Source: Flavobacterium sp. CBA20B-1
Lineage (GTDB): Bacteria; Bacteroidota; Bacteroidia; Flavobacteriales; Flavobacteriaceae
Direction of reading: 5' to 3'
Assembly (NCBI RefSeq): GCF_028473145.1
Contig: NZ_CP092371.1
Coordinates: 1-64,000 of the forward strand
Length of the DNA: 64,000 nt
Numbering within the stretch: the stretch's first letter is position 1; the number at the start of each line of letters is the position of its first letter. Shown in pieces: positions 8,767 through 47,963 of this stretch. The position numbers and the translations under genes are program-made. The notes beneath the pieces are model-generated. The model was not told the DNA's origin. It was given only the letters and a program-made list of their open reading frames with translations, and searched no databases.

Positions 8767-8865
8767 TTTTTGGTTGATATAAAGTCCGAAAAGGAATTGA
8801 GATTAAATTGATATATTTAAATGAAGTAATATTTCAATTTAAATTAAAAAACTATATAAGAAAAA

Positions 8866-9042: not shown

Positions 9043-9050
9043 ATAAAAAA

Positions 9051-9080: not shown

Positions 9081-9111
9081 TTAATTAAGATTTTAGTTAT
9101 AATTAATGAAA

Positions 9112-12213: not shown

Positions 12214-12250
12214 CTTATGTTATTCTAGTAGCTGTTAATGGATGAATGAT

Positions 12251-25039: not shown

Positions 25040-26023
25040 TTATAATTTAAGGTAATTTATTGCTTTGTTCGCATAACTAAAAGCCTCTTCTAAAATTTGA
25101 TGTTTTTTCTCTTCGGCTGTATGCTTTAACCAACTTTTTAAATAAATAATTGAGTTAATAAACTGCTCTGAATAATTGAATTCTAACGAAAACAATAACG
25201 AACCCAATTCCGCAACCAATTCTTCAAAAGCATATTTATTTCTACCGTCTTCAAAATCTTGGTCTAAACGGTTTAATCGGTCTTTATGTCCTGTCCAATG
25301 AATAATTTCATGAAAAACAGTTGAATAATATGCACCCTTATTTTTGAAATACTGCGGTTTGGGTAAATGAATTTCATCTTTTCCAGGAGTATAATACGCT
25401 TCGCCTTGTACTAAATGTTGTAATGATAAATTTTTGGTTTCAATTAAACCATTAATAAAATTTTCGGCACAATCATCAAGTTCTATGAGTTCAACATCAG
25501 CAATAATAGGAAACTCACAATCATTTATATTTTCAATGTTATCCGTATGAAATACACGATAATACTTCATAAAGCTTTTTACTCGATATTCTTTTTGTTT
25601 TGTGCTATCTAAAGCCTTAAAATCAGCAAGTTGAATACGTTCTTCCGTTTCTTTATGTCTAATATCATAACTAAAGTATTGTATTGGTAATGACTTTGAA
25701 CCTTTCTTAATTTTGCCTTTTGATTTAGTAATCTGATTAAAAGTCGCATAATAGCAATTTGAACGCTTATTAATCAACATATCAAGTGCCAATATAAATT
25801 GGTTTAATCGTGTGTAAGATTGTAAAGAAAGTCTGTTAGCAGGCATAAAAGATACATTTTCTTTTAAAAAATGTTGCCAATGTTTCTCTTCTACGTTTTC
25901 CAGTTGTTCAATAATTGAACTAAAGAACAAATCGTTATAATTATTCTTTGTAGTTTGAGCTTGGCTCTTTTCTGTTGTTTTAACGGTTCTTTTTGCTTGG
26001 GGAGTTTTTACATTTGTTTCCAT
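25040..26023 (-). CDS. ArdC-type antirestriction protein with zincin metallopeptidase domain
   Basis: Predicted antirestriction protein that protects incoming plasmid DNA. The N-terminal half (about 35-190) matches the ArdC single-stranded-DNA-binding domain (RTKYDFT-like WQHFLKENVSFMPANR and NQFILALDMLI). The C-terminal half is a zinc peptidase-like domain with HEIIHWTGH at about 240 and the downstream FEELVAELGS acidic motif. I chose the ATG at 26023 (METNVKTPQ) over an in-frame ATG at 26065 because the extra 14 residues look unlike the family. It is a standard companion of conjugative backbones and fits the early transfer role. Confidence 0.85.
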   Translation of the reverse strand: METNVKTPQAKRTVKTTEKSQAQTTKNNYNDLFFSSIIEQLENVEEKHWQHFLKENVSFMPANRLSLQSYTRLNQFILALDMLINKRSNCYYATFNQITKSKGKIKKGSKSLPIQYFSYDIRHKETEERIQLADFKALDSTKQKEYRVKSFMKYYRVFHTDNIENINDCEFPIIADVELIELDDCAENFINGLIETKNLSLQHLVQGEAYYTPGKDEIHLPKPQYFKNKGAYYSTVFHEIIHWTGHKDRLNRLDQDFEDGRNKYAFEELVAELGSLLFSLEFNYSEQFINSIIYLKSWLKHTAEEKKHQILEEAFSYANKAINYLKL

Positions 26024-26531
26024 AATAAAATAATATTTAATAGTTCTACAATTTTTATTAATCATTCTTCGTGAGTTGTCGCTTATGGCTTTTCTGTGCG
26101 AAATAGAACTATTGACTACAGAACGATTTATAAAAGGAAAAATCCATTGGCCGCTACAGAAATGAAGCTGACAAATGGATTCGACTGGTAAATATATTTA
26201 GGAGTGTCTGCGAGTTAGAAATACAAGATAGATAAACTGAAAATTGGCGTTATTTTTCCTGAAAATACTGACGATTTTAAGGTGATATCTATTGATGTAG
26301 TTCTTAAGAAGTAGAAACCTCAATAGATTTTTATAAAGCGGAATAGGCAATAATTTTGCAACAAGAAAATCATATACGGCGACACCTCCGAATAGAGTGA
26401 CATAAAAAGGGAAGAAGCTATTTTCAATATTATGATAGAACAAGTAAAAACCAAGCAAAAAGAATTAATTAAAACATTAACAACTTTCCTTTTTAAATAG
26501 GATAAACACACTAATTTCAATCGTAGAATGA
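26024..26531. other. Non-coding or decayed stretch left of the IS remnant
   Basis: Open frames here are hydrophobic, low complexity and mutually overlapping, with no recognisable family, so I do not call a gene. AATCCATT (about 26140) and AATGGATT (about 26175) form an inverted repeat. The right part (26497-26531) holds the CACACTAATTTCAATCGTA sequence that probably marks the end of the IS1182-like remnant. Confidence 0.45.
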
Positions 26532-27258
26532 TTAACTAAAACTGAACCTTTTTACGTTGGGTTGGACAGGTTTTACAAAAACCAAACTATTACCTTGTTT
26601 TAAGGAGAAAACTTGGGCTAAAACATGGAGTATTTTAAATATAAAACGCAAGTGTTTCTTCAAGTTATCCGATAAACTTGACATTACTACATGGTTGTTT
26701 GCCTGAGCCATCCCACGACTATTGATGCGCTTCATATTGAAAAAGTTGATCAACGTACCTAATACTGGCTCCACTGTGCTTGATCGACGTTTAACCAATC
26801 TGCGGTGATACGCTTTGTTTCGGATCAGTTTTTTATGCATTTTGTCGTAAAGAGGTTGTTGCTGTTCATTTAAAAGGCAAATGAGCCTTGTTCCCTCCTT
26901 CCTGAACGCATTCATATCGATTTTCTTCTGTATTAAAAAAAAACTTTTCGGGGGGTACTTTTCAAAATTAGGGATCCAGGCATCCAATTTTTTGTGCTCA
27001 CAATATTGCAAACTCATACCACTACTGTAACCTACATCTGGTAAAACTTCACCAATTTTCATTAACAAAATCTTAAAAAAACCACAGGGTATAGACTTTT
27101 CTGACCTTGGCTACCGTAATATTTTTTTTTGTGGAGTTATACAGAAAGTGTAAATCTAACTCTTGATTTATGCACCTATAAAAGTTATCTGCTGGAACCA
27201 AGCCATCTAGGCTTAATTAATAAAAAAGTTCTAAGGTAAAATCTTTACGTTCTTGCAT
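26532..27258 (-). pseudogene. Decayed IS1182-like transposase
   Basis: The C-terminal part (26532-27068) encodes GYSSGMSLQYCE, then RRSSTVEPVLGTLINFFNMKR, the conserved DDE C-terminal region of IS1182-family transposases. Upstream, in another frame from the ATG at 27258, the family N-terminus is readable: DGLVPADNFYRCINQELDLH, then PVVFFKILL after a frameshift, with an in-frame TAA at codon 14. The middle of the protein is missing: the N-terminal segment ends at FFKILL and continues directly into the late KIGEVLPDVGYSSG segment. The element therefore has a stop, a frameshift and a large internal deletion and cannot be active. Confidence 0.82.
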
Positions 27259-27708: not shown

Positions 27709-30360
27709 ATGCTAAGAAAAATTGTAATTCTATTTATATGTCTATTATCAAATTATTTTTTCGCACAAACTAAATGTGTTGGAAAAATTAAAGATTTCAA
27801 TGAGAATCCCATTTTTAATGCATCAGTAGTATGCAAAAACACTGAGGGGCATATTATTAGTTTTAGCTTTACTGATAATAGTGGGGATTACAGTATAGAT
27901 ATTGAAACAAGTGGATCGTTTATAATAGAAGTAAATAAAGCGGGTTTTTTAAAAGAAAAAAAAGATCTTATTGTTGATAAAAAAAATAAAAAATATCAAC
28001 TAGATTTTGTGTTAAATGAAACTAGTGAATTGCTAGATGATTTAGTCATTGAAATTGAAAATCCGATTAAACAAATGGGGGACACTCTTTCTTATGATGC
28101 AAAAAATTTTAGTACCGGTAGAGAACAAACTGTGGAAGATTTGTTAAAAAACATTCCGGGAATTACAGTTGAAAAAGATGGTAAAATTCAATTTGCAGGT
28201 ATTGAAATTGAAAAAGTAATGGTTGATGGCGATGATTTTTTTAATAAAGGGTATTCTTTACTAACAAAAAATATGCCCAATAAGCCACTTGATAAAGTAC
28301 AGATATTACGAAGATACTCTAATAATAAACTTCTAAAAGGAATAGAGGAATCAAATAAGGTGGCGTTAAACCTTACGATAGACGACAAATATAAAGATAT
28401 TTGGTTTGGAGATATTTCTATGGGTTATGGCTTAGTTTCAGAAAACCGTTACGATGTTAGTGGAAATTTAATGAATTTTAGTAAAAAATATAAAAACTTT
28501 CTTAATTATGGATTAAATAATATTGGTTTAGACAAAGTAGGCTCAATAGAAGATATGATTTTTAATAATAATGACCTAGAATCAATTGGAAGTAAAAATC
28601 TAAATAAAATAATGGGATTGGACGCAAGTCGTGCAGGTCAATTAAAGGATGAGCGAACTAGAATAAATAACGCGGAAAATATATCATTAAGTACAATTAT
28701 TCCCTTAACAGAAGTATTAAAAGTGAAATTTGTCGGTTTTTTGGGATTGGATGAAAACTATGCATTTAATAATAGATTAAATGTAACTTCTGTTGGAAAT
28801 ACTTATTTCGAAAATTCTGAAATGAACAGATTTAAAAGTCACTTAAAAAAAGGATATATAAATTTATTAACTACTTACGATATCTCTAAAAATGATATGC
28901 TACAAGTTAGTTCTGTCTTTAATAAGGGGATAATAAATAATTATAATGATTTAACATTTAATAAAAAAAATACATTAGAACGTTTGGAAACTGAAAATAG
29001 TTTTTTTGATCAAAAGTTAACCTATACTCATAAATGGAAAGATAAAAATGTTGTACTTATAAAAGGAAGGTTTTTTTCAAATAAAATTCCGCAATTTTAT
29101 GCTGTAGATGATTATCTATTGGGAGATTTATTTTCATTTGATGCAGATGCTATGAACAATAATATTGATAATCAAAAGACCTTTTCTGGAATTGAAGCAG
29201 ATTTTAAATTAAAGCAGAAAAATAATGATTTAATTGAATTTCAAGTGGGTTATCAATATAATAAAGATATAATTAATACTAATTTTCAATTATTTAATAA
29301 CTACTCAAGTATTCGTCCAAATGAATTTCAGACTGATAGTTCATTTTCTACAAATGATTTTTATATTAGAAGTCGTTATACTTGGAAATGGACTAATTTT
29401 CAAATTACAGGTCGTGGAGATGCTCATCAACTATTTAATAGATTTGAATCTTTAAAATCAAATAAATCGCAAAACCCATTTTACATAAATCCTTCAATTA
29501 GTTTTCGATGGGATATCACCCCTACACAAGTACTAATTGCGGCTTACATGTTAAACTATTCAAATATTCCAGTAATCAATGTAAATGACACGTACGTACT
29601 TAGTTCATCAAGATCATTTTCTAAAGGATTAGGAAATTTTCAGTTAACAGATTTTCAATCTGCTAATATAAGATACACTTACAATCATTATCTTTCAAGA
29701 TACAATATTACATTTGGTTTAGATTATAGTAAGCAGAATAATACTTTATCAACAAGAAGTATACTAAACCAAAATAATAATCTATCAGAATCTATTTTAA
29801 TGAAAGGGGGTAATACTTATTCATTTTCAATAAAATCGCAATTTTATTTACCATATTTTATGAAAAGCACAATTAGTTTTGGTGGGAACTATAGAATATC
29901 TAAATCTTTTAATGTAATTAACAATTCAGGATTACGAAAAACCATTTATTATTCCCAAAACTATAATTTTCAATGGAGAACAAATTATCGTACTGGTTTT
30001 AACTTTTCTATGAGTTCAGAATTTACTTTTGATAAAGTAGAATCTCCAGATTTTATTAATAATTTTAATAATAATTTTAATGTATTAGAATTATATTATC
30101 TATTGGGAAAATTTAATTTTAAAATATTAGGAGAGCACTATCATTTTGGAAACCTAGAGAATAATAATAAAGACCATCTTTTTATTGATTTTGAAACGTC
30201 ATACAATATAAATGATAAATATACAATTACATTACGGGGTAATAATCTATTGAATAAAAAAAACTTTTCGACCTATCGTATTTCTGACATCGGCTATACA
30301 ACATCTACATACTCCTTAGTCAACCGGTATATTTTACTTTCAATCAAATTTAGATTTTAA
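27709..30360 (+). CDS. TonB-dependent receptor-like outer-membrane barrel with CarboxypepD-like domain
   Basis: Predicted outer-membrane protein of 883 residues. A signal peptide (about 1-19, ending FFAQ) is followed by a carboxypeptidase-regulatory-like beta-sandwich (about 20-105), a plug-type region (about 120-200, EDLLKNIPGITVEKDGKI, KVMVDGDDFF), then a long beta-barrel ending in KFRF with the final Phe expected of barrels. The fold resembles SusC/TonB receptors of the kind often found beside GLPGLI proteins in flavobacteria. It precedes four small exported proteins and two GLPGLI genes on the same strand, the first only 79 bases away, suggesting one functional locus. Substrate unknown. 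Confidence 0.82.
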   Translation: MLRKIVILFICLLSNYFFAQTKCVGKIKDFNENPIFNASVVCKNTEGHIISFSFTDNSGDYSIDIETSGSFIIEVNKAGFLKEKKDLIVDKKNKKYQLDFVLNETSELLDDLVIEIENPIKQMGDTLSYDAKNFSTGREQTVEDLLKNIPGITVEKDGKIQFAGIEIEKVMVDGDDFFNKGYSLLTKNMPNKPLDKVQILRRYSNNKLLKGIEESNKVALNLTIDDKYKDIWFGDISMGYGLVSENRYDVSGNLMNFSKKYKNFLNYGLNNIGLDKVGSIEDMIFNNNDLESIGSKNLNKIMGLDASRAGQLKDERTRINNAENISLSTIIPLTEVLKVKFVGFLGLDENYAFNNRLNVTSVGNTYFENSEMNRFKSHLKKGYINLLTTYDISKNDMLQVSSVFNKGIINNYNDLTFNKKNTLERLETENSFFDQKLTYTHKWKDKNVVLIKGRFFSNKIPQFYAVDDYLLGDLFSFDADAMNNNIDNQKTFSGIEADFKLKQKNNDLIEFQVGYQYNKDIINTNFQLFNNYSSIRPNEFQTDSSFSTNDFYIRSRYTWKWTNFQITGRGDAHQLFNRFESLKSNKSQNPFYINPSISFRWDITPTQVLIAAYMLNYSNIPVINVNDTYVLSSSRSFSKGLGNFQLTDFQSANIRYTYNHYLSRYNITFGLDYSKQNNTLSTRSILNQNNNLSESILMKGGNTYSFSIKSQFYLPYFMKSTISFGGNYRISKSFNVINNSGLRKTIYYSQNYNFQWRTNYRTGFNFSMSSEFTFDKVESPDFINNFNNNFNVLELYYLLGKFNFKILGEHYHFGNLENNNKDHLFIDFETSYNINDKYTITLRGNNLLNKKNFSTYRISDIGYTTSTYSLVNRYILLSIKFRF

Positions 30361-30439
30361 TTTGTATTATTATTTTTTTTTATTATTTTTAGAAAAATAT
30401 TTTACAAATTTTAGTTAACATTAATAAATATATTATAGT

Positions 30440-30793
30440 ATGAAGAAAATTTTATTATCAGTACTTGTTGGTTTAGCAAGTTACACTGGAACTTATGCTT
30501 CTAACGGAGAAATCCAATTAGATTTAAAAAGCAACTTATTTTTTAATGATATTTCTTTTGAGGTATCATCTTTTGAGCATTCTGAAAAAATAATTTTTTT
30601 TGATAATTGCGTTTATTCTGTTTTTTGGACTGATACAAATGGTTTTCAGCATTCCAAAACAATGATGCCTATTGGCACCTATGAGAGTTATTCTGATTGT
30701 GTTAGAGCTATAAATGAAAAATTAGACGACTTAAGATCTTGGGGATATACTATTGATAAATATAGTATTCATTACGGAGAAGATGGTTGGTAG
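30440..30793 (+). CDS. Small exported two-cysteine protein, family member 1
   Basis: A 117-residue protein with an N-terminal signal peptide (MKKILLSVLVGLASYTGTYA, cleavage near residue 20). Mature part: NC near residue 57, 29 residues, then a second Cys, then a WGY motif near the C-terminus. The pattern is shared with three neighbours at 30838, 31389 and 33503, but the rest is strongly diverged. It is the most divergent member, with an aromatic acidic tail (HYGEDGW). The two Cys probably form a disulfide in the periplasm or outside the cell. Function unknown. Confidence 0.72.
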   Translation: MKKILLSVLVGLASYTGTYASNGEIQLDLKSNLFFNDISFEVSSFEHSEKIIFFDNCVYSVFWTDTNGFQHSKTMMPIGTYESYSDCVRAINEKLDDLRSWGYTIDKYSIHYGEDGW

Positions 30794-30837
30794 TAATCAA
30801 CTAAAATTATTATTTTTAATTATAAATATATTACATT

Positions 30838-31185
30838 ATGAAGAAAATTTTATTATCAGCACTTGTTGGTTTAGCAAGTTACACTGGGGCTTATGCTTCA
30901 AATGAGATTGTTTCTAATACTGTTAATACAGTTGAAACATTAAACTTTCCAATTGAAACCTTAAAAATTGAAGCTTTTACTGAAAATTACAACTTAGAAT
31001 TTAGTTATAATTGTCGTACTACCATCAGAGTTAAAGATAAGGAAGGATTGCAAACAGAAGTAAACCTTAATACTAATACATCAAATGCAGATGAGTGTAT
31101 AGAAAGGGGCTTGCAATTTGCTTCGTTATATGAAGCCGCTGGGTTTGAAATTACACATTATAATAATTCTTTTAACATCGAATAG
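30838..31185 (+). CDS. Small exported two-cysteine protein, family member 2
   Basis: A 115-residue paralogue with a nearly identical leader (MKKILLSALVGLASYTGAYA) and pro-region (SNEIVSNTVNTVE). YNC is followed by 27 residues and the second Cys, then AGF and a polar tail. The segment KDKEGLQTE resembles the TDKEGLPSE of member 3. DNA identity in the first 90 bases with members 3 and 4 is very high, while the 3' part has diverged, which indicates recent duplication followed by diversification. It begins 44 bases after member 1 and is probably cotranscribed. Function unknown. Confidence 0.72.
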   Translation: MKKILLSALVGLASYTGAYASNEIVSNTVNTVETLNFPIETLKIEAFTENYNLEFSYNCRTTIRVKDKEGLQTEVNLNTNTSNADECIERGLQFASLYEAAGFEITHYNNSFNIE

Positions 31186-31388
31186 ATTTTAACAAAAATT
31201 GAATCTATTTTAACTAAATAATAACCAAGTTTAATTATCATTAAAATTAATTTTTTCTTTTTAAAAAAATAATTTTAGTACTATTTCAAATACTTATTGA
31301 AATATCTGTTATAATATACTTTATCAAAATGCTATAACATGGGTAATCAATTAAGAATAATTATTTTAATGTAAAAAATTTAAATATT

Positions 31389-31733
31389 ATGAAGAAAATT
31401 TTATTATCAGCACTTGTTGGTTTAGCAAGTTACACTGGGGTCTATGCTTCAAATGAAATTGTTTCTAATACTGTTAATACAGTAGAATATGAATTTAGTA
31501 ATTTAATAACTAATTTAAATTCAACAACCGAATCAGTTAATGATTTTGATCCAAAATATAACTGTTTCACAAGGTTTACTTTTACAGATAAAGAAGGTCT
31601 CCCATCTGAACATTATTCAAAAACAACAACTTCATCTGCGGAAGCTTGTTCACAAAAAGGACAAGAGCAAAAACAACTTTTTGAACTAGCAGGATATGTT
31701 GTAAGTGATTATTCCAACAATTATAGTGGTTAA
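31389..31733 (+). CDS. Small exported two-cysteine protein, family member 3
   Basis: A 114-residue paralogue: leader MKKILLSALVGLASYTGVYA, the same SNEIVSNTVNTVE start of the mature part as member 2, then YNC, 27 residues and Cys, then AGY and an Asn/Ser-rich tail. A 203-base AT-rich gap with no gene separates it from member 2. A very strong terminator follows 15 bases after its stop, so it ends the first transcription unit. Function unknown. Confidence 0.72.
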   Translation: MKKILLSALVGLASYTGVYASNEIVSNTVNTVEYEFSNLITNLNSTTESVNDFDPKYNCFTRFTFTDKEGLPSEHYSKTTTSSAEACSQKGQEQKQLFELAGYVVSDYSNNYSG

Positions 31734-31748
31734 TATATTAAACATCAA

Positions 31749-31790
31749 AGTAATTAGCAACTTAATTATAAGTTGCTAATTACTATTTTT
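31749..31790 (+). terminator. Strong terminator after member 3
   Basis: AGTAATTAGCAACTT (31749-31763) and AAGTTGCTAATTACT (31770-31784) form a perfect 15-bp stem with a 6-nt loop, followed by ATTTTTT. The GLPGLI genes downstream therefore need their own promoter. Confidence 0.88.
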
Positions 31791-31803
31791 TAAATCTCAC
31801 ATT

Positions 31804-32595
31804 ATGAAAATAATATGTTTTATTTTATTTTATTTTAGCCTTTTTGCCGTTACTGCACAAGAACGTATCAAAGTGGATTATTCCGAATATAAACATGTTC
31901 AAATTCCTATTTTGCAAAAGGGACAACTTTATATAGACTTAAAAAACGAAAAAACGGTTTGGGTTGAAAATACAAGTTCTAGAATAGAAAATTATGACAA
32001 AAAAAATATTGAAAAACCTAAAAACGAAGATATAAGACGCCCCGATAATTCTTTTGAAGTTTCGTTAGGAAGAACCATTCCAGATGATTATGTTCTTTAT
32101 GACTACAAAAACAGAAAAATAGAGATTATTGAGGATTTAGGTAAGAAAGTATTTTCTGTTCCCGATACATTTAATGAGTTAAAATGGAATTTACAGAAAG
32201 AAACTAAAACAGTTAACAATATAGAATGCTTTAAAGCAACAACAAATTTCAGAGGAAATGATTGGGATGTTTGGTATGCTCCATCTATTCCTTACCCATA
32301 TGGACCATGGAAATTACATGGCTTACCAGGATTAATTTTAGAAGCAAAAACAAAAGACGGATTTTATACATTAATAGCAGATAAGATAGAATATAATTAT
32401 CCAGAAAATAATCAATTAGTTCCAAGAGATAAAATTCTTAAAGAGTTATCGTTCAAAGAATATTTGGAATATCAAGACGTTCTATTTAATATGTTGTTTT
32501 TAGGAGAAGATATGCCTAAACAGGCAAGAGATATATTTGCACATAAAAAAGAAAGAAAATTTGAAACTAAAGCAAACCTTTCATGGATGAAGTAA
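31804..32595 (+). CDS. GLPGLI family protein 1
   Basis: Exported 263-residue protein (signal peptide about 1-18, ending VTAQ) with the family-defining motif GLPGLI in WKLHGLPGLILEAKTKDG (about residues 169-186), preceded by WDVWYAPSIPYPYGPW. The GLPGLI family is widespread in Bacteroidota and of unknown function, often beside TonB-type receptors. A 298-bp block covering the middle of the gene is nearly identical to the next gene, whereas both ends have diverged. Context suggests it works with the barrel and the small two-cysteine proteins, as inference. Confidence 0.9.
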   Translation: MKIICFILFYFSLFAVTAQERIKVDYSEYKHVQIPILQKGQLYIDLKNEKTVWVENTSSRIENYDKKNIEKPKNEDIRRPDNSFEVSLGRTIPDDYVLYDYKNRKIEIIEDLGKKVFSVPDTFNELKWNLQKETKTVNNIECFKATTNFRGNDWDVWYAPSIPYPYGPWKLHGLPGLILEAKTKDGFYTLIADKIEYNYPENNQLVPRDKILKELSFKEYLEYQDVLFNMLFLGEDMPKQARDIFAHKKERKFETKANLSWMK

Positions 32596-33201
32596 CATGA
32601 TATATTATATTAAAGAATATAAATTTATAACAAACTATTTAATATTTAAAAATGAAAAAGATTTTGTTACTTTTCTTTATAAGTTTCATTAATATAAACG
32701 CACAAAACAGATTAAAAGTAAATTATTCTGAATATATTAATATACAGATTCCCGTTAAGCAACCAAATAAATTGTTTATAGATTTGAAAAATGAAAAAAC
32801 AGTTTGGGTTGAAAATACAAGTGCTCAAATTTGGGACTATGATAAAAAAAAAGAAGAAAAAGAGCAAATAGAAAAAGGATATAATAATGCTTTTTCAGCG
32901 GAATTAGGAAGAACCATTCCAGATGATTATGTTCTTTATGACTACAAAAACAGAAAAATAGAGATTATTGAGGATTTAGGTAAGAAAGTATTTTCTGTTC
33001 CCGATACATTTAATGAGTTAAAATGGAATTTACAGAAAGAAACTAAAACAGTTAACAATATAGAGTGCTTTAAAGCAACAACAAATTTCAGAGGAAATGA
33101 TTGGGATGTTTGGTATGCTCCATCTATTCCTTACCCATATGGACCATGGAAATTACATGGCTTACCAGGATTAATTTTAGAAGCAAAAACAAAAGACGGA
33201 T
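32065..33201 (+). repeat. 298-bp near-identical block shared by the two GLPGLI genes
   Basis: Positions 32065-32362 and 32904-33201 match with a single visible difference (ATAGAATGC versus ATAGAGTGC). Flanking coding sequence of the same genes is clearly diverged, so the block looks recombined rather than freshly duplicated. Confidence 0.88.
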
Positions 33202-33431
33202 ATTTTACCTTCATTGCTGAAAAAATAGATAATAATTATCTAGAAAGTGAATTGTATATACCTAGAGAAAAAATATTAAAAATAATTTCTTTTAAAGAGT
33301 ATTTAGAATATCAAGATTATTTATTTAATTTTTTATTTTTAGGAAAAAGTGCTCCTACACCAAAAGATGTATTTCTTAACACTAAAGAAAAAAAATTTGA
33401 AACTAAAGCTAATTTATCATGGTTAGATTAA
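32652..33431 (+). CDS. GLPGLI family protein 2
   Basis: Paralogue of 259 residues with its own signal peptide (LLFFISFININAQ) and the same GLPGLI motif. Residues 85-183 are identical to copy 1, but the N-terminal (SEYINIQIPVKQPNK) and C-terminal parts differ, including a shortened tail. It starts 56 bases after copy 1 and is likely cotranscribed. The mosaic pattern points to gene conversion. Function is unknown for the family. Confidence 0.9.
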   Translation: MKKILLLFFISFININAQNRLKVNYSEYINIQIPVKQPNKLFIDLKNEKTVWVENTSAQIWDYDKKKEEKEQIEKGYNNAFSAELGRTIPDDYVLYDYKNRKIEIIEDLGKKVFSVPDTFNELKWNLQKETKTVNNIECFKATTNFRGNDWDVWYAPSIPYPYGPWKLHGLPGLILEAKTKDGYFTFIAEKIDNNYLESELYIPREKILKIISFKEYLEYQDYLFNFLFLGKSAPTPKDVFLNTKEKKFETKANLSWLD

Positions 33432-33502
33432 TGATAAATATTCATCTAATAAATTAAATATACTTTATATAAAGAATTTTTAACAAATAAATATATTACA
33501 TT

Positions 33503-33826
33503 ATGAAAAAAATTTTATTATCAGCACTTGTTGGTTTAGCAAGTTACACAGGAGTATACGCTTCAAACGAAATTGTATATGGCATTTCAATATCAAAAGA
33601 AGTAGAATCATGTATTATTGAAACAGCTAATGATCTTTTATATGAAGTAGAATCAGACATTAATTGTTTCAACTTTTTTTTAGTACGAAAAGATGGAGTT
33701 GAAACATTGGTTAAGTTAGAATCGTTCGCACAAAATGATGTAGATTGTTTTTCTCAAGGCAAAGCCCATGCCGAAATTTATCAAAATGTAGGATATGAAG
33801 TTGGGTATATAATTTCATTTTATTAA
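33503..33826 (+). CDS. Small exported two-cysteine protein, family member 4
   Basis: A 107-residue paralogue placed after the GLPGLI pair. The leader is MKKILLSALVGLASYTGVYA and the upstream bases ATATATTACATTATG match those before member 2. The mature part has an additional Cys near residue 37, then INC, 26 residues and Cys, then VGY and a hydrophobic C-terminus (IISFY). It thus has three Cys, unlike the others. A terminator follows. The arrangement of members 1-3, GLPGLI pair and member 4 suggests a cassette-like locus built by duplication. Confidence 0.7.
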   Translation: MKKILLSALVGLASYTGVYASNEIVYGISISKEVESCIIETANDLLYEVESDINCFNFFLVRKDGVETLVKLESFAQNDVDCFSQGKAHAEIYQNVGYEVGYIISFY

Positions 33827-33846
33827 GAAATTCTACAGAATAGAAG

Positions 33847-33880
33847 CCGTCTCAATATTAAATTTGAGACGGTTCTTTAT
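33847..33880 (+). terminator. Terminator closing the GLPGLI locus
   Basis: CCGTCTCAA (33847-33855) pairs with TTGAGACGG (33864-33872) and runs into TTCTTTATTATTTG, 20 bases after the member 4 stop. Confidence 0.82.
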
Positions 33881-34017: not shown

Positions 34018-34480
34018 TCAGAATATTGCTAACTGATTTGTTTTTAATTTATTATATTGTATTGAAGGTTTTTTAGGAAAAAATGAATAAGCAATTAGCC
34101 CCGAAATAAGGTTTGTAAAAAAGTTTCCTATAGATCTGTGTCTTGAATATTCAATTTGGCACATATTTTTCAATTCATCGTTAACTGTTTCAATAACAGA
34201 ACGTTTTCTCAATAGTATCTTATCAGACAAGGTCATTAAACAGTTTTTCATATTGTTTTTAAGCTGTGTGATTAGATGAACACCATCAACAAATAATATG
34301 TCTGCAATTTTCTTAGAGATATACCCCTTATCTGCAAAGAGTTTCCCGAGAATCCCTTTGATAAATCCTTCATTTTTAAGAGGTTAACGGTCATCTAAAT
34401 TGGCTTGTGTAATAGTAAAGCTTAGAATTTCACCCTTTTCATTAATAATTAAGTGAAGCTTGAATCCATATAATATAATA
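34018..34480 (-). pseudogene. IS982-family transposase remnant
   Basis: Leftward reading gives YGFKLHLIINEKGEILSF, ANLDDR, a stop, PLKNEGFIKGILGKLFADKGYI, then LLRKRSVIETVNDELKN and HRSIGNFFTNLISGLIAYSF, the conserved C-terminal half of IS982 transposases. The stop (TAA where Glu is expected) and the missing N-terminus make it inactive. The 5' end is cut at about 34480 by an IS3-family element. The stop codon at 34018 overlaps AACCTGAGTTCGATTAA (34001-34017), the likely terminal repeat of this element. Confidence 0.85.
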
Positions 34481-34542: not shown

Positions 34543-34830
34543 ATGAAACAAACAAGAAGAAAATTTTCGTCGGAATTCAAGGCTAAGGTAGCAATAGAAG
34601 CTTTGAAAGAAAGAGAAACGCTCCAAGAATTAGCGTTAAAATTTGAGTTACACCCGAATCAAATATCGCAGTGGAAACAGGAGTTTTTAGAGAAGTCCTC
34701 ACAGGTTTTTGACACAAAAAAGGCGGTCAAAGAATCAGAAGTCGAAATTTCGGAGCTTTATAACAAGATTGGGAAACTAGAAATGGAGAAAGAATTCCTA
34801 AAAAAAAACTTGAAACGCTTCGGTCTGTAA
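34543..34830 (+). CDS. IS3-family transposase OrfA
   Basis: A 95-residue DNA-binding half of the transposase. The N-terminal helix-turn-helix (RRKFSSEFKAKVAIEALKE, then LHPNQISQWKQ) is followed by a leucine-zipper-like coiled coil (EVEISELYNKIGKLEMEKEF). It binds the terminal repeats. A run of nine A residues near 34800 could be the slippery site for the frameshift that makes OrfAB in this family. Its stop overlaps the orfB start (TAATG). Confidence 0.92.
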   Translation: MKQTRRKFSSEFKAKVAIEALKERETLQELALKFELHPNQISQWKQEFLEKSSQVFDTKKAVKESEVEISELYNKIGKLEMEKEFLKKNLKRFGL

Positions 34831-35651
34831 TGGATATGAGATTATTGCTTTTGAAAGAAAAAAAGATGAGCATCCGCAGGCAATGCGAGCTGTTAGGGAT
34901 TAACCGCTCAAGCGTTTATTATACCCAAAAAGGGGAAAACAAAGATAATCTTCGAGCTATGCATTTAATGGATCAACACATTTTGGAAGAACCCACCGCT
35001 GGAGTTTTAACTATGCAAAGTATGTTAGATTAAAATAGCCTTTCAATGAGTTATGAACGCGTGAGAAGACTGATGCGTAAGGCAAATATTGTCCCCATCT
35101 ATCCGCGAAGAAGCCTTACCCAAAGAGGAGATAATAAATACATTTATTCCTACTTGCTAAAAAACTTATCCATCACCGAAGTTAATCAAGTTTGGCAGGT
35201 GGATATTACCTACATTCCTATGAGAAACGGATTTATGTACATGACTGCCATCATCGATGTCCATAGCAGATATATTGTCGGCTGGGGATTGAGCAACAGT
35301 TTGGAAGCTTCAGAAAGTATCCGAGTCGTTGAACAAGCCATAAAAGCACATGGAAAACCTAAAATACTCAATTCTGACCAAGGAACACAGTTCACTTGTT
35401 ATGAATATACAAAGTACTTAAAATCAGAAGGAATCCAGATTTCGATGGATGGCAAAGGAAGAGCTCTGGACAATATCTACATTGAGCGATTTTGGAGAAC
35501 TCTTAAATATCAGTATATTTATCTCAATCCCAAAGAAAATGGATTAGAATTGTATTTAGGAATCAGAGACTGGTTAGAACGATATCATAACAGAAGGCAT
35601 CAAGAAATAGCAATGCAGAAACCAAAAATGAAATATAAAAAAGCAGCCTAA
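34830..35651 (+). pseudogene. IS3-family transposase OrfB, nonsense-broken
   Basis: The catalytic half is readable across one frame but is interrupted by a TAA at 35031-35033 (QSMLD, stop, then NSLSMSYERVRRLM). Both sides are in the same frame, so this is a single point mutation. The downstream part keeps the DDE residues: VDITYIP, NSDQGTQF and YIERFWRTLK, ending in NRRHQEIAMQKP. Without suppression the element cannot transpose on its own. The rest of the protein is well conserved, so inactivation is recent. Confidence 0.88.
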
Positions 35652-41688: not shown

Positions 41689-42399
41689 TTATTTTATGTA
41701 AGTTTTCACATAGTTAAAAGGATATTCAACTTCATGTCCGTTTACAAAGTTAAATTTGAAACTATTAGAACCATAGTTTTGGTCTTTTAGTCCTAACTCG
41801 AATGTTGACAATAAATCACTTCCTTGAAAAACACTAGTTGAAGAATTTAAGATGGAATTATTTTCATCAATTGTAAATTCATATGGTTGTGCACTTAATA
41901 CTACTAACTGGACTTTATTTACAGAATATGAATTACCATCGGTTGTTTCATAATAAATTTTACCGTTTGAATGTTCTGGTGCTCGGTTAATTAAATTATT
42001 TACAAATACATACGGCTGACCATTTGATTCAATAGTGTAAAAATCTTTTATTGAAAAGGTACCATGCTCAGGTAAAGAAACAATAGCTTTGGTTCTTCCG
42101 TACTCATTAGGGGTTAATGTCACATCATCATTTATGTGATATTGAAAATTACCGTTTACAATATTTCCATTTAATTTGACTTCTCCGTCAAAATCAATAT
42201 TTATAGTTACAGATTCAACATCTGAGGTCGAATAAAATGTAAAATCAACAGGGATTTCATTTTTATCAATAGAAGCAAATGAACTTTCTATTTTTAAAGC
42301 AGAAATATATTTTTCATTTTTTACTGCATAATCATCATCGCTACAAGAAATAAACATAAATGCAGCAGAAACAAATAAGATTAACTTTTTCATATACAA
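41689..42399 (-). CDS. Lipoprotein at the end of the tra operon
   Basis: A 236-residue predicted lipoprotein: signal peptide with lipobox ending at Cys about 20 (FISCSDDDYA), then beta-rich repeats. Acidic residues after the Cys fit outer-membrane targeting in Bacteroidota. It resembles the neighbouring 398-residue lipoprotein in style and may be related to the TraQ (DUF3872) class of conjugation lipoproteins. It is the last gene of the operon, 5 bases after its neighbour. Exact role unknown. Confidence 0.65.
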   Translation of the reverse strand: MYMKKLILFVSAAFMFISCSDDDYAVKNEKYISALKIESSFASIDKNEIPVDFTFYSTSDVESVTINIDFDGEVKLNGNIVNGNFQYHINDDVTLTPNEYGRTKAIVSLPEHGTFSIKDFYTIESNGQPYVFVNNLINRAPEHSNGKIYYETTDGNSYSVNKVQLVVLSAQPYEFTIDENNSILNSSTSVFQGSDLLSTFELGLKDQNYGSNSFKFNFVNGHEVEYPFNYVKTYIK

Positions 42400-42404
42400 T
42401 TATT

Positions 42405-43601
42405 TTAATTTAAAGATCCGTTTAAATACACGTTTATATTATATGTTTTTGATTTTTCATCACCATTGCTGCTAACAACTTTAAAAGTAGCAGTACCAGC
42501 TCCCCAAATTGTTGTAGCCTGAGCTCCAAAATTGGTATCTATTTTTAAATAGTTTGATCCTTCTTCCAGGATATAATGTCCTTGCCAATTCGTATCTAAA
42601 GGTTCATTTACAATACCATAACTATAAGTTAATAATCCCGTAGGATTTTGCGTAAATTCCACATGGAAAGTCTCTGAAGGGTCATATTTTTGAATATTAA
42701 CTTTAATGTACTTATCTTGTCTTCCACTTGTTCTTGTGAAGTGATAAGGGCTACTGTTCCAATTGCCTGTCACAAAAAACTCAATCAAATTAGTGGTATT
42801 TGTAGTAACAGATTGACTTGTTCCCCATGTAAAATTCACATCAAACACTTTATACTTTAAATCAACAATCAACCCTTTGGTAACCTCATTATTTTGCTGA
42901 TCCATAGCAATAACATTAATAGGTTGTACACCATAACTATCATCTTTATATTTAATTGTAAATACACCTGAACCATATGGAATAACAGTAGAATTTGTAA
43001 TAGGATTTCCATTTACAGATAAAATAGCATTGCTTTGAAATTTTACCCCGATAATTGGATTTGTACTGACTACGTTTTCAACTTTAATCAATGTATTTTC
43101 ACGCTGATCGTAAGGAATCACATTATTAGAAAACGGATTAAGCTGACTATCTACAAGGCTTACTTCAAAATCTAGTTCTTGGTTGGTAATGCCAAAAGAT
43201 TTAGTCTGGGTTGTTTCATATCCTTGGCTATTTATCATAGTAATAGTCAAGGTTTTCGCAGAAGAATTGTTATTAGAATTAAAAATCAACGTTAACTTAC
43301 CATCGGTTAGCTCGTCATAATTTAACCAAGTACCATTTGTAAGTAATGTTTCTCCGTTTTTTACCTGTGCGTCCATAATCGTAAATTTGAATTTGTAATC
43401 TGGATTAGGGTTTTCAATCTCGCCCAATTCTAACGGATGAATAGTAATATCAAAAGGAATATTACTTACCGAATTACTCTCTCCTGTAATAACAATTTCA
43501 AAAGGAAATTTATAATCAGAATTTCCACTAATAAGATTTTCTTCATCTGAGCAACTTATAAGAAGCATGCAGCAAACAAATAATTTTAAAATCTTTCTCA
43601 T
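42405..43601 (-). CDS. Lipoprotein with TraQ-like repeats
   Basis: A 398-residue lipoprotein (lipobox LLISCSDEEN). The mature part appears to hold about three beta-sandwich repeats of 110-120 residues, each starting with a PFEIVIT- or DFEVSLV-like strand and ending with GYETTQTKSFGI- or NNEVTKGLIVDL-like text, similar to DUF3872 of TraQ in CTnDOT-type systems but larger. It may sit on the outer membrane as part of the mating pore or a surface adhesin. Assignment to TraQ is tentative; context within the tra operon is strong. Confidence 0.6.
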   Translation of the reverse strand: MRKILKLFVCCMLLISCSDEENLISGNSDYKFPFEIVITGESNSVSNIPFDITIHPLELGEIENPNPDYKFKFTIMDAQVKNGETLLTNGTWLNYDELTDGKLTLIFNSNNNSSAKTLTITMINSQGYETTQTKSFGITNQELDFEVSLVDSQLNPFSNNVIPYDQRENTLIKVENVVSTNPIIGVKFQSNAILSVNGNPITNSTVIPYGSGVFTIKYKDDSYGVQPINVIAMDQQNNEVTKGLIVDLKYKVFDVNFTWGTSQSVTTNTTNLIEFFVTGNWNSSPYHFTRTSGRQDKYIKVNIQKYDPSETFHVEFTQNPTGLLTYSYGIVNEPLDTNWQGHYILEEGSNYLKIDTNFGAQATTIWGAGTATFKVVSSNGDEKSKTYNINVYLNGSLN

Positions 43602-43627
43602 AGCATAAAAAATTTAAATGTGTTAGA

Positions 43628-44182
43628 CTAAAAGTTTATTTTGAGACCTACTTGCCCAAAAACTATTTCTTTATCAATAGTAGATTTAAAAATGTTGTGA
43701 TACTTAACCCCGCCAGTTAATGAGAGAGCTGGAAAAAGAACAAATTCTAATTCTGTACCCCCATATGCGCCGAAATTATTTCGGTTGTATGAAGGCATGG
43801 CTCCTTCAGGAAGATCAAAATTCTTAAGTTCTTCATTACTATAAATTCCACCAATATATAGCTGTAAATAGAAAGGATGGGGAATTACTTTTTCAAGCGA
43901 ATAAGTACCTGCAATACCCACTCTTTTGCTATTAAAATTTCCTTGATACACGGTTGAACCAAAAAATGCAAGGTTATAATCTTGCTGCAAAAGATCCAAA
44001 TCGGCTCGCATTCCAAAGAATTTATTTCCAATAAGCTTTTGAACGTTTATATTATAGTTTTTTCCATTATTTACAAATCCATAATTAAACCCTAAGCTAT
44101 ATTGCCCTGCGTAATGTGTTTGAGCAAAAGTTGATGCATAGAAAAGTCCGAAAAGGAACAATAATATCTTTCTCATAGTCAT
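43628..44182 (-). CDS. traO: TraO-like outer-membrane conjugation protein
   Basis: A 184-residue exported protein (signal peptide ending YASTFAQ) with a small beta-barrel pattern: alternating polar and hydrophobic strands (YAGQYSLGFNYGFV, FGMRADLDLL, GVKYHNIFKS) and a terminal Phe. It matches the TraO family of Bacteroidota conjugation systems in size, position after traN and barrel style. It probably forms part of the outer-membrane section of the mating channel. An alternative start lies two codons in (MRKILL). Confidence 0.75.
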   Translation of the reverse strand: MTMRKILLFLFGLFYASTFAQTHYAGQYSLGFNYGFVNNGKNYNINVQKLIGNKFFGMRADLDLLQQDYNLAFFGSTVYQGNFNSKRVGIAGTYSLEKVIPHPFYLQLYIGGIYSNEELKNFDLPEGAMPSYNRNNFGAYGGTELEFVLFPALSLTGGVKYHNIFKSTIDKEIVFGQVGLKINF

Positions 44183-44187
44183 ATTTT

Positions 44188-44976
44188 TTAATTGTAATAG
44201 CGTGCGTTATCAATTAATGATGCTAAAATTTTGAAACTTAAATTCCTATCTCCGTTTTTCTCTGTTAATTCAAACAGAAGTTGTTTGTCATCTCCTACAG
44301 AGAATTTATCGAACATAAAAACTATTTTATTTTTACCTTTAGGAAGCGCTTTTAAATCAGGAGTTACTTGGAGAATATTAACATCAACTGTTTGTTCACT
44401 CGTAGCAATACCTTTGGAGTTAGTAATATAAAATTTGAAGGCATTCACATCGTAATTGATATTGCTATTGTTATCAATTCGCATTAAAACATACATCTTA
44501 TCACTATTCACATAAATACCATTTAAAATAACCTTGATATTTTTATAAGATGAGATATTACGGCTTTTTATATATCCAGATTCCTTCAAAAGCTTCTGAC
44601 TTATGTTGGAACTATTAACCGGTAATGATTTAGCGTTTGATTGCGATTCATTCGTTATATTTCCTGCATCAATTCGAACAGTAAGGTCTGTTGGATCTTC
44701 ATCGTATCGTAATAAAAAATTGTATGTTTTATTATCAACTGTTTTTACAAATAAGTTGGTTTCCTGAACGTTTGGTTCAAGAAATTGTATAAACAAAATA
44801 TCATCTACTTGCCGAATTCCGAATTTATCGTGTATAGACACAGAGTTTTGATAAAAATCAACTTTCGCAGGGAATTGTACCGTTATGAATTTATCTTTTG
44901 AGGCTTTTAAAACTTGTATCTGTGCATTTACCTTAAATCCGATTAATAGTAATGCGATTGAAAATAACTTTATCAT
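44188..44976 (-). CDS. traN: TraN (VirB9-like, DUF4138)
   Basis: A 262-residue exported protein. The signal peptide (about 1-18, ending VNAQ) is followed by a beta-rich domain with FITVQFPAKVDFYQ, DDILFIQF and YNFLLRYDEDP, typical of TraN, the VirB9-like periplasmic/outer-membrane component of the channel. Residues about 150-255 are the DUF4138 C-terminal domain (VILNGIYVNSDKMYVLMRID). Its start overlaps the traM stop by 4 bases, showing coupling with its partner. Confidence 0.85.
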   Translation of the reverse strand: MIKLFSIALLLIGFKVNAQIQVLKASKDKFITVQFPAKVDFYQNSVSIHDKFGIRQVDDILFIQFLEPNVQETNLFVKTVDNKTYNFLLRYDEDPTDLTVRIDAGNITNESQSNAKSLPVNSSNISQKLLKESGYIKSRNISSYKNIKVILNGIYVNSDKMYVLMRIDNNSNINYDVNAFKFYITNSKGIATSEQTVDVNILQVTPDLKALPKGKNKIVFMFDKFSVGDDKQLLFELTEKNGDRNLSFKILASLIDNARYYN

Positions 44977-45998
44977 TTTTGAATTAATAAGACTTTTTGA
45001 TTATCAATAAATTTTACAGAAGGTTCTTTAACTTTATTAGATACTACACTGCCCACAACACTTCCCACTTTACCTAAAATACCACCACTTCTAGCCACAT
45101 CATCCACTGCGCTATTTCTTCCTTGTTTTAAACTTTCATCTAAAGAGATGGGAATTCCTTTTAAACCATCATTACTATAAACTACTAGATTAACAGGCAC
45201 GATAGATCCATTAATATTTGTAGTTTCTATGGTAATTTCGGCACGATATTGATTAAAGCGAACAATACCAAATAAGGACGTATTACGTGGAATTTTGACT
45301 CCACCAATAAAACCATCTGCATTGGTTTGAAACCGTAACGTTTGTCCGTTTTTAACTTCTTGTGTACCTCTAACAACTGCCTGAATCGTACCATTTCGTA
45401 CTTGTTTGCCATTTTCGAATATTTCCTTTTTTGATTGTTCTACGGAAACAACATTCTTCACATAAGTTTCGGTAGTTTGAACAGTAGTACGTTGTTCCAT
45501 TTGCTGTACTCTGTTTTCAACGTAATTATTGGCTGATGAATACCCAATGTTACTATTTTGAGGTTCTTCTACTTGCCACATGGATGAATTTCCGTATCGG
45601 TTGTAATTCGATTTTCGGACTGGAGTAGTATTATCTACTTGCTGATGAATCGGTTCATAACTAGTATTAAAATTTGTTTCCGATTTATTCTGATTAAAGT
45701 AATCTATATTACCCTCTATATCATTCTCCTTTTTTCTTGCAAAAAATTGAGTCATTCGTTGATTTGGATCCCCCCTAACGGTATCAAATTTTTTTAAAGC
45801 TTGTAGCCTTGTTTCGTACTGTTCTTTTTTTGAAGATAAAGGAATATCCATAGTACTAACTTCCTTATTTGATGAATCCTCACCACCTGCGAACGAAAAA
45901 CCAATACCAATTACACCTATTGATATAATTCCGAAAATGGTATAAACAATGAATTTACATTTATCTTCTTCACTTAAATTTTTAAAATCCCAATTCAT
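44973..45998 (-). CDS. traM: TraM (VirB10-like)
   Basis: A 341-residue bitopic protein linking inner and outer membranes in the mating channel. One transmembrane helix (about 13-32) is followed by a long hydrophilic Gln/Asn-rich linker (about 35-180) and a C-terminal beta-barrel-like domain with IQAVVRGTQEVKNGQTLRF, IPRNTSLFGIVRF and the VYSNDGLKGIPI motif typical of TraM. It follows traK directly and overlaps traN by 4 bases. Confidence 0.9.
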   Translation of the reverse strand: MNWDFKNLSEEDKCKFIVYTIFGIISIGVIGIGFSFAGGEDSSNKEVSTMDIPLSSKKEQYETRLQALKKFDTVRGDPNQRMTQFFARKKENDIEGNIDYFNQNKSETNFNTSYEPIHQQVDNTTPVRKSNYNRYGNSSMWQVEEPQNSNIGYSSANNYVENRVQQMEQRTTVQTTETYVKNVVSVEQSKKEIFENGKQVRNGTIQAVVRGTQEVKNGQTLRFQTNADGFIGGVKIPRNTSLFGIVRFNQYRAEITIETTNINGSIVPVNLVVYSNDGLKGIPISLDESLKQGRNSAVDDVARSGGILGKVGSVVGSVVSNKVKEPSVKFIDNQKVLLIQK

Positions 45999-46634
45999 CT
46001 ATTCCATTTCTTTTAACTGTTCAACATCTTGAATTAAAACCTTACTTTCTTCTACATAATCAACTATCAAAAGCCCATAAGGATTGTATGGATAATTAAT
46101 GGACACATCAATCATACTCAGCTTAATTTGAATATTATAAACCTGCTTTTGTCCTGTATTAATAATTTGAATTTGAGTTATAAATCGTAGCGTATATTTT
46201 CCATTTTCCTCCGACCACTGCATCGTTTCAGGAAGTACTTTTGCGTGCTGAATAATATTGTATTGCAGCAACTGATTATAATAGCCGGCATTCTCTTTAT
46301 TCTTAAAAATCCTGATTACATTATTATCTAACAACCACGCTAATTTTTCTTTCTTATCTTTATAATTAAAAGCGTCAATATCGTAGGCGTAATTGACAAA
46401 TAAATCGGCATTTGCCATTACTTGCCTAATACGGTCTTTCTTTTCATCAATTAGAGTAAGTGGTAGCATTTGACCTGTACTATCAATAGCATACACATGA
46501 TTGCGACTATGTAGATATGTTTGGTAACTGAAATATACTGCCGACACTACAGAAACCAACGTAATTACAGCCATAACGTATACGGCTACATTGTTTCTTT
46601 TTAGTTTATAAAATATGTTTTCTCCTACTTTCAT
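45999..46634 (-). CDS. traK: TraK (VirB8-like)
   Basis: A 211-residue inner-membrane protein with a short cytoplasmic N-terminus, one transmembrane helix (about 15-35) and a periplasmic domain of VirB8 type (IRQVMANADLFVNYAYDID... QIQIINTGQKQVYNIQIKL). It is a scaffold of the type IV secretion channel. The pattern ANADLFVNY and NPYGLLI is characteristic of the TraK family. It sits one base after traJ and abuts traM. Confidence 0.88.
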   Translation of the reverse strand: MKVGENIFYKLKRNNVAVYVMAVITLVSVVSAVYFSYQTYLHSRNHVYAIDSTGQMLPLTLIDEKKDRIRQVMANADLFVNYAYDIDAFNYKDKKEKLAWLLDNNVIRIFKNKENAGYYNQLLQYNIIQHAKVLPETMQWSEENGKYTLRFITQIQIINTGQKQVYNIQIKLSMIDVSINYPYNPYGLLIVDYVEESKVLIQDVEQLKEME

Positions 46635-46635
46635 A

Positions 46636-47436
46636 CTAATTAAATAAATTATCTACTAATCGTTTTGTGCCACTGAACAATTTAATTTTCAAGAAAAATG
46701 ATATACCCAAACCTGCGATATAGAGTAATAATCTCTTGGTTAAATTAGCAGGATCATCAGGGTTTATACTTTGAATTTGTGAGGTATGTGTCATCACTAA
46801 ATTCGATAAATGAAATATGGCCATATAAGGTATGGGCAATAGTAGAATCCCTACATATTTTTTAATCCAGCGGTAAAAAAAGTCTTTTGTACCATCTAGC
46901 TGAGAAAATACAATTGCTAATGGAAAAATGAACCTCATAATCTGAATTAGAAACACCCGTTCAATCAAATAAAACCCATATACCAAATTATCCAACACCC
47001 ATAACAAACAATAAATCGCATAGAATATGACGATGATACAATTGGCGACAAACGAATCAATAAAGACATTAATACAGTCAAACCCCGAACATCCATCTTG
47101 TAACATTTGTAGTTCAAGCATCGCATTAGTGAATACCTCTGTATTAAAAGGAACGGTTTTGGTGGTTATAGAATCATCGATTTGAGCAAATATATTTTCA
47201 ATCATATCGATAATCCAATCAGCTGAAATAATAATCATACCTGCCCCTAAAACTTCCATAAAGCCACCTAAACGAGGTTCTTCATGATCCATATTTTGAA
47301 AGTACTTTCCTAAATATTTCAAACCCAACAAAGCAATAGCAAATGCCTTAAACCCAGTAATGGTATAGTTTAAAATATTTTCACTTTCAATGGATTGCCG
47401 AAGGCTATTTATAAATGAAAAATCAAACGCCTCCAT
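46636..47436 (-). CDS. traJ: TraJ (VirB6-like polytopic protein)
   Basis: A 266-residue inner-membrane protein with about six transmembrane helices (including KAFAIALLGLKYLG, VFIDSFVANCIIVIFYAIYC, YVGILLLPIPYMAIF). It probably forms part of the inner-membrane DNA gate. The motif DHEEPRLGGFMEVLGAGM and the Cys pair DGCSGFDC in a periplasmic loop are family-like features. It abuts traI on one side and traK on the other without spacing. It is shorter than typical CTnDOT TraJ (about 330). Confidence 0.85.
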   Translation of the reverse strand: MEAFDFSFINSLRQSIESENILNYTITGFKAFAIALLGLKYLGKYFQNMDHEEPRLGGFMEVLGAGMIIISADWIIDMIENIFAQIDDSITTKTVPFNTEVFTNAMLELQMLQDGCSGFDCINVFIDSFVANCIIVIFYAIYCLLWVLDNLVYGFYLIERVFLIQIMRFIFPLAIVFSQLDGTKDFFYRWIKKYVGILLLPIPYMAIFHLSNLVMTHTSQIQSINPDDPANLTKRLLLYIAGLGISFFLKIKLFSGTKRLVDNLFN

Positions 47437-47946: not shown

Positions 47947-47963
47947 AGCCTATTTTTTTTAAA

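Follow-up and report, generated by a model that had tools for sequence, protein, structure and literature searches.

Protein secretion that depends on a TonB-type barrel has been described for the Oar-PopC pair of Myxococcus xanthus, in which a barrel with a CarboxypepD-type extension, a plug and a TonB box is required for PopC secretion, and the accessible sections of that report state that the same architecture dominates among the TonB-dependent transporters of Bacteroidetes (PMC6434023). The present study concerns a seven-gene cassette of the marine Flavobacterium sp. CBA20B-1, in which an outer-membrane barrel stands with four small exported two-cysteine proteins and two proteins of the GLPGLI family. 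The cassette sits on a plasmid, within a stretch of 64,000 nucleotides (hereafter the window) that corresponds to positions 1-64000 of C2, one of the three contigs of a 3.04-Mb genome. It resembles Oar-PopC in the putative architecture of the barrel, which has CarboxypepD-like, plug-like and TonB-box-like parts, and, in the export model proposed below, in having a protein cargo which would wait in the periplasm. It differs in that the accessible sections of the report describe a single protease cargo and neither a GLPGLI/LolA-fold partner nor a variable cassette of small genes (PMC6434023).

The LolA and LolB carriers of Bacteroidota, for which a specific LolA-LolB pairing is reported in P. 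gingivalis in the accessible parts of two studies (PMC11885536, PMC13103446), share their bowl fold with the predicted model of GLPGLI. However, GLPGLI has no sequence match to the LolA/LolB families, none being listed at E<=1 in Pfam or NCBIfam, and the four small proteins carry no lipobox cysteine after the leader. The two GLPGLI proteins of the window belong to that family, and the N-terminal bowl domain of PNGF-II is among the closest solved structures; distinctive here is a C-terminal tail that changes with the small protein encoded next to it. Operons for precursors of bacteriocins or of ribosomally synthesized and post-translationally modified peptides likewise begin with a leader-bearing small gene, followed by a hairpin and then by the machinery, and their cargo is diversified; the cassette leader, however, is Sec-type, and no modification enzyme, peptidase-ATP-binding cassette (ABC) protein or ABC exporter was found among the seven cassette proteins (Pfam, NCBIfam). 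SusCD-type loci also join a TonB-type barrel to a dedicated partner gene, but no SusD family was found among these proteins in the same databases. The component families are known, and the operon which joins small proteins to GLPGLI and barrel may be newly described here.

All seven genes proposed in the initial annotation were found as open reading frames (ORFs) where it had placed them. The features of the cassette are as follows:

27709..30360 (+), outer-membrane barrel, 883 aa, with signal peptide, CarboxypepD-like domain, TonB-box-like stretch, plug-like region and barrel
30440..30793 (+), small exported protein 1, 117 aa, NC-x29-C
30838..31185 (+), small exported protein 2, 115 aa, NC-x27-C
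31389..31733 (+), small exported protein 3, 114 aa, NC-x27-C
31749..31784 (+), terminator- or attenuator-like hairpin, 16-bp perfect stem followed by a T-rich run (-20 kcal/mol, z -7.7)
31804..32595 (+), GLPGLI protein 1, 263 aa, with a tail ending KANLSWMK
32652..33431 (+), GLPGLI protein 2, 259 aa
33503..33826 (+), small exported protein 4, 107 aa, NC-x26-C
33845..33874 (+), terminator-like hairpin past the last gene, the probable end of the cassette
30805..30936 (+), reference copy of a repeated 5' block (33 nt upstream, leader and start of the mature part); other copies begin at 30407, 31356 and 33470 (+)

The gene order in the window is therefore barrel, three small genes, two GLPGLI genes and a small gene, whereas elsewhere it is usually small gene, GLPGLI, barrel. 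The small genes had been called bracketed by the barrel and GLPGLI genes, which is true roughly and not strictly, as the fourth lies beyond the GLPGLI pair.

The small proteins combine a shared leader with unlike cargo. The leader MKKILLSALVGLASYTG is identical in three of them and one residue off (A8V) in the fourth, and the DNA block in common is 132 nt long (-33 nt to +99 nt of the start codon); identity to the reference copy is 70, 89 and 74% in the remaining three. All four keep the same plan, namely NC, a spacer of 29, 27, 27 or 26 residues, Cys, 14 residues and G[YF]. Identity within the window is 19-39% for the mature parts and 83-100% for the first 24 residues (shuffled baseline 18.8%, standard deviation 4.0), so that the nearly identical leader, the shared 5' DNA and the diverged mature parts on a two-cysteine plan, as first described, are borne out by comparison. 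Between the genes at 30838 and 31389, synonymous differences affect about 2 of 17 sites of the leader, whereas the cargo differs at about 43 of its 55 (p 1.3e-6 by Fisher's test with rounded counts); the remaining pairs show the same direction more weakly, down to 0.36 vs 0.46 for 31389/33503. Since the synonymous difference is low in the leader and high in the cargo, the leaders of at least one pair share a recent history that the cargos do not, and the comparison points to leader exchange or gene conversion in at least one pair of the window.

With a profile of seven small proteins, 30 matches were obtained at E<=0.1, of which the present genome supplied five, and a broader profile matched 69 at E<=0.001; none in either set has a listed Pfam domain. 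Many of the profile matches have a leader near M[KR]KMFLSALACVAFAGSSFASNEVV with unlike cargo after it and usually two cysteines. Weak matches only were obtained with 60 aligned members (Pfam DUF6520 in four plus two singles; five singles in NCBIfam), and no curated family was matched above its cut-off in the Pfam and NCBIfam scans made. Besides the two cysteines, only M1, A20 and G70 are kept in at least 90% of the 60 rows; the invariance of the cysteines is partly by choice, because fragmentary, redundant or non-plan proteins were left out of this alignment (P0012, P0021, P0026, P0028; L027:2943, L049, L051, L042, L043 and others). The four small proteins matched no C-terminal domain family of the type IX secretion system (Pfam, NCBIfam), and none of the seven cassette proteins matched the anti-phage profiles of PADLOC at E<=0.01. 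A fold common to all four small proteins had been proposed for checking, which was done for one of them: the model of small protein 3 has a low-confidence N-terminal half followed by a confident beta-beta-alpha-beta domain at residues 57-113.

The linkage of these genes to GLPGLI and barrel genes recurs across genomes. A barrel profile, built from the two barrels of the present genome, found 29 places in 25 genomes at E<=1e-120 among 299 Flavobacteriaceae genomes. At all 28 non-window places, two of which lie on the chromosome of the present genome (L017, L086), GLPGLI is upstream of the barrel; it is directly adjacent at 27, and the barrel ORF at L095 is shortened. A small ORF with a signal peptide and at least two mature cysteines precedes GLPGLI at 23 of the 28 by rule and at 22 after discount of a doubtful 54-aa ORF at L095. 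Counted by gene, 46 of 92 GLPGLI genes at 61 loci have a signal-peptide small ORF, with two cysteines 22-36 apart, ending at most 150 nt upstream, a count whose n is slightly inflated by loci which repeat one contig (L043/L095, L056/L091). The control, 361 other long ORFs, gave no such two-cysteine ORF and six signal-peptide small ORFs of any kind. A scan of public genomes with the two barrels found 34 loci, mostly in Flavobacteriaceae, with records labelled Pedobacter and Chitinophaga included.

The reverse search of the 299 genomes with the small-protein profile led, at E<1e-4, to known barrel loci, to the present genome or to five further places. Several of the matches at known loci are profile members and hence circular, and those above E 1e-4 mostly span the signal peptide alone. 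Four of the five further places (L136-L139) are small-GLPGLI-barrel loci with more divergent barrels; at the fifth, in G683, the profile had falsely matched the signal peptide of a 267-aa protein that is unrelated. Homologues scattered away from GLPGLI and barrel genes were thus not encountered in these genomes at E<1e-4, in agreement with the link first claimed. The alternative that the small genes are spurious ORFs, called near common GLPGLI genes, draws on the AT-rich DNA and on mature sequences that can barely be aligned; the empty control of 361 genes, the leader, cysteines and hairpin position held in common and the confident domain model argue so strongly against such an artefact that its probability is negligible.

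Duplication is recorded at several loci, as had been anticipated for a diversifying system. The chromosomal sister cassette L017 (C1:440000-456000; cassette at about C1:445.9-454.9 kb) holds one barrel together with six GLPGLI genes; its small gene is present in three copies (near 6740, 8898 and 11131), of which one is open (105 aa), one lacks its start region and one has an early stop and then continues in another frame. A GLPGLI gene lies upstream of a third barrel, at C1:2529547, which is also accompanied by a broken small-gene remnant. An array is present at L105 (G407, 443-10354), where five successive small-GLPGLI units, four of them trailed by a short piece of a barrel start, are followed by one full barrel. 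Read from its sequence, L105 is a record of unit duplication in which the copied unit is the small gene plus GLPGLI, with one barrel for all. The single-barrel pattern is also found in the window (four small genes) and at L030 (three pairs).

A terminator-like hairpin lies in 34 of 59 small-to-GLPGLI gaps (the pairs among 83 with gaps of 20-140 nt), mostly with unlike sequences, against 20 of 151 gaps between other co-directional genes at the same loci; not all of the 59 are independent, as some come from close relatives with near-identical hairpins (L063/L083; L036/L037/L052). No hairpin was seen in the 22 GLPGLI-to-GLPGLI gaps or the 12 GLPGLI-to-barrel gaps. Real gaps served as the control since the shuffle (expected 0.2) preserved single-base composition alone. 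Given this enrichment over the control gaps, the simplest reading is a probable excess of small protein over GLPGLI, its putative carrier, and the barrel. Bacteriocin precursors and pilins are likewise made in excess.

Both window GLPGLI proteins pass TIGR01200 with 139.8 and 140.8 bits (cut-off 50). The predicted model of GLPGLI 1 has a LolA/RseB-like bowl (a half-barrel) with a low-confidence C-terminal tail, and the nearest solved structures are PNGF-II (4r4x, 4r4z; the N-terminal bowl domain) and 7zgn. The two copies are mosaic: residues 101-180 of copy 1 are identical in copy 2 (DNA 97% identical over 300 nt) and both ends are diverged. GLPGLI was found in 238 of the 299 sampled Flavobacteriaceae genomes, and the family entry (TIGR01200, PF09697) reads 'protein of unknown function'. 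No paper giving a function for GLPGLI or describing the operon was found in the open-licence literature searched, nor were the two accessions. The earlier statement that GLPGLI proteins have no established function stands for this literature and is amended by the predicted carrier-type fold.

In the barrel, a TonB-box-like stretch, LDDLVIEI, occupies residues 109-116 and is followed by a plug-like region at about 121-240. Its CarboxypepD_reg-type scores fall just below the cut-offs (30.9 vs 32.3 and 27.8 vs 32.2 bits), and it has no match to the plug model (PF07715) or to barrel models. Five of five relatives scanned pass at least one of two CarboxypepD-type models, two exceed the PF14905 cut-off, and one of these two also matches PF07715, below cut-off. 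Among 85 aligned barrels, conservation is highest in the plug-like region, the last three residues aside, and the TonB-box-like pattern occurs in 79, a count made with a loose pattern and without control. The plasmid barrel is 62% identical to that of the chromosomal cassette L017. Such TonB-type features, with the probable excess of the small protein and the metal genes on the same plasmid, would also suit a hemophore-like scavenger, that is, a small protein secreted by another route which binds a ligand and is re-imported by the barrel, with GLPGLI as the periplasmic acceptor. The paralogous cargos beside one barrel are near the shuffled identity baseline, which is odd for a common ligand, and few residues besides the two cysteines are conserved; scavenging is rated as distinctly unlikely.

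The reading we favour, tentatively and at somewhat less than an even chance, is that a three-part envelope operon for mini-protein export is present here on a plasmid in rearranged form. The small protein would be exported by Sec, its signal peptide cut before SNE, and its mature part would consist of a flexible N-terminus and a beta-beta-alpha-beta domain with one disulphide. The hairpin would stop or trim transcription ahead of GLPGLI and barrel and so leave the small protein in excess. GLPGLI, with its predicted LolA/RseB-type bowl, would be soluble in the periplasm; it would recognise the small protein with which it is paired, probably by means of the variable C-terminal tail, and deliver it to the plugged TonB-type barrel, which would release it from the cell. 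A single barrel would serve several small-protein/GLPGLI pairs, whose number would grow through duplication and leader exchange, and the cargo would most likely be used in competition against related bacteria or in some other surface role that changes fast. Of this model, the sequence itself supplies the operon, the leader, the cysteines, the hairpin, the co-variation and the duplications, and both folds come from prediction, whereas the disulphide, the excess, the pairing, the carrier role, the direction of transport and the use are inferred. The original proposal of a secretion, toxin, effector or pheromone system holds as to linkage and duplication, and the roles themselves stay conjectural.

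Several types can be told apart in the last 30 or so residues of GLPGLI. In 62 of 92 they contain [YFI][EQD]W, usually as YEWE, and YEWE-like tails commonly stand beside small proteins with two cysteines 26-30 residues apart; an NCxDC-like tail stands beside the C..R.C...C.EW...C type, and further tails beside further types. Among 83 pairs (91 before identical GLPGLI ends were merged), similarity of the small proteins correlates with that of the tail (r 0.25) and of the GLPGLI body (r 0.25), and with the tail given the body at r 0.18. For the 67 barrel-linked pairs, the tail given body and barrel retains r 0.14 (p 0.0005, the lowest value that 2000 permutations can give). By these comparisons the tail co-varies with small-protein type, weakly but beyond permutation. 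CxxC tails occur in four of seven pairs of the four-cysteine pattern class, all four being of the C..R.C...C.EW...C type, vs one of 76 elsewhere (Fisher p 9e-5), where the rule derives from the same data on which it is counted, L069 excepted. L069, a fifth locus of this type outside the pair set, has the expected CDDC tail, and no further loci of the type were found on which the rule could be tried. Two other tails may be recorded: the L097 GLPGLI at 6931 carries CFKCE (CxxC) at the usual YEWE position, and L219, L221 and L224 combine similar Cys-rich or C-T-V-Y segments with a similar GLPGLI tail, a candidate class of matched pairs.

GLPGLI and barrel extend beyond the small two-cysteine genes. 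In a class-wide sample GLPGLI was found in 29 of 60 genomes, and a barrel is labelled near it in 17 of 33 loci (L140-L172, the better-scoring places of the sample). At some loci of the common Flavobacteriaceae GLPGLI pair, whose tails are near IRIGG and RGRGGRR, a different small exported protein with 0-2 cysteines lies upstream. Five such loci (L249-L253) each combine a pair of GLPGLI genes and one barrel or more with a divergently oriented histidine kinase and response regulator (Pfam-checked in L249 and L250, by eye in the other three), and the small exported gene comes first in three (L249, L250, L253); this type of locus is possibly the core form of the system. Because GLPGLI-barrel pairs exist without small two-cysteine genes, GLPGLI and barrel look, from gene content, like a wider core of which small exported proteins are variable clients of several kinds.

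The two-component genes at all five loci, three of them with a small exported gene, lend themselves to another explanation, in which the small protein and the RseB-like-fold GLPGLI stay in the periplasm, where they regulate or maintain the barrel, and nothing is exported. Likewise, five GLPGLI genes are listed as direct PhoP targets in Riemerella in the accessible part of one study (PMC9603813). Envelope sensing or repair alone, however, leaves the hypervariable, duplicated cargo and the hairpin after the small gene unexplained, and we judge it unlikely.

A number of observations weigh against the export model itself. TonB-type barrels usually import. The window holds two GLPGLI genes for four small genes rather than a carrier per cargo, and its GLPGLI tails (SWMK, SWLD) lack the YEWE usual beside C-x26-30-C small proteins. 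Similarity of the small proteins correlates with that of the barrel about as strongly as with that of the tail (r 0.25 and 0.23, n=67); with 50 pairs of 2-3 cysteines, the tail given body and barrel gives a weak r of 0.105 (p 0.01), and the Mantel permutations control relatedness only partly. Exceptions to the tail rule comprise L210, whose CxxC-tailed GLPGLI has no small gene directly before it, L097, where a CxxC tail stands beside a two-cysteine small protein, and other four-cysteine small proteins without CxxC tails. In the class-wide loci a small two-cysteine gene precedes GLPGLI in only 2 of 33 (L152, L168), and L024 of Flavobacterium sp. xlx-214 (6787-12667) has four consecutive GLPGLI genes and then a barrel, with no small gene by rule. 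As such pairs and the L024 run lack a small two-cysteine gene, GLPGLI must have another client or role. Finally, two of the three chromosomal small copies are broken, while the six GLPGLI genes and the barrel stay open.

Spare GLPGLI genes which outlast broken or missing small genes are what a toxin-immunity system would leave, as orphan immunity genes outlast their toxin genes. The small protein would then be a bacteriocin acting in the periplasm or at the surface, GLPGLI its cognate immunity protein and the barrel an exit or entry gate, and the small gene often lies directly before a co-varying GLPGLI gene and is here plasmid-borne. The presence of GLPGLI in most sampled genomes and of GLPGLI-barrel pairs without small two-cysteine genes nevertheless fits a housekeeping part better, and no toxin family was matched in Pfam, NCBIfam or PADLOC, which leaves this explanation a low probability.

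Beyond the export model favoured above, a bolder form of it is possible but rather doubtful: a new kind of Bacteroidota export system, in which hypervariable one-disulphide mini-proteins are handled by cognate, tail-reading LolA-fold GLPGLI chaperones and leave through one TonB-powered plugged barrel, with a cargo that passes between strains and plasmids as weapons or recognition tags. If true, this would give a function to GLPGLI, a family in most of the Flavobacteriaceae sampled. The locus offers a handle on GLPGLI in the form of a defined client, a defined barrel partner, a predicted carrier fold and a tail-cargo rule. It is also a route to asking whether TonB-type barrels export proteins in Bacteroidota, as Oar-PopC belongs to another phylum.

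Flavobacterium sp. N2155, from abalone gut, carries the same DNA as its 64,660-bp plasmid NZ_CP110003.1, with 100% identity over the cassette. In its public annotation the barrel is a TonB-dependent receptor, both GLPGLI proteins are named and the four small proteins are hypothetical. Other cargo of the plasmid includes metal genes, a type I restriction enzyme subunit and tra-type genes. The cassette is flanked by transposase pieces and an insertion element:

26532-27068 and 34018-34251, transposase pieces of differing families on either side of the cassette
34543-35651, IS3-type insertion element in the flank of the cassette

Coupling-protein and Tra-type genes lie at 4909-6525 and 41689-50447 of the window, and PLSDB types the plasmid as non-mobilizable. 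An ArdC-type anti-restriction protein (ArdcN plus a zincin-like metallopeptidase) is encoded at 25040-26065 (-), on the same plasmid as the type I restriction enzyme subunit at 9112-12213. A 1452-aa ORF at 57795-62153 (-) carries a resistance-nodulation-division (RND) efflux domain at residues 5-1029 and an outer-membrane efflux domain at 1267-1449, so that pump and outer-membrane channel are joined in a single frame.

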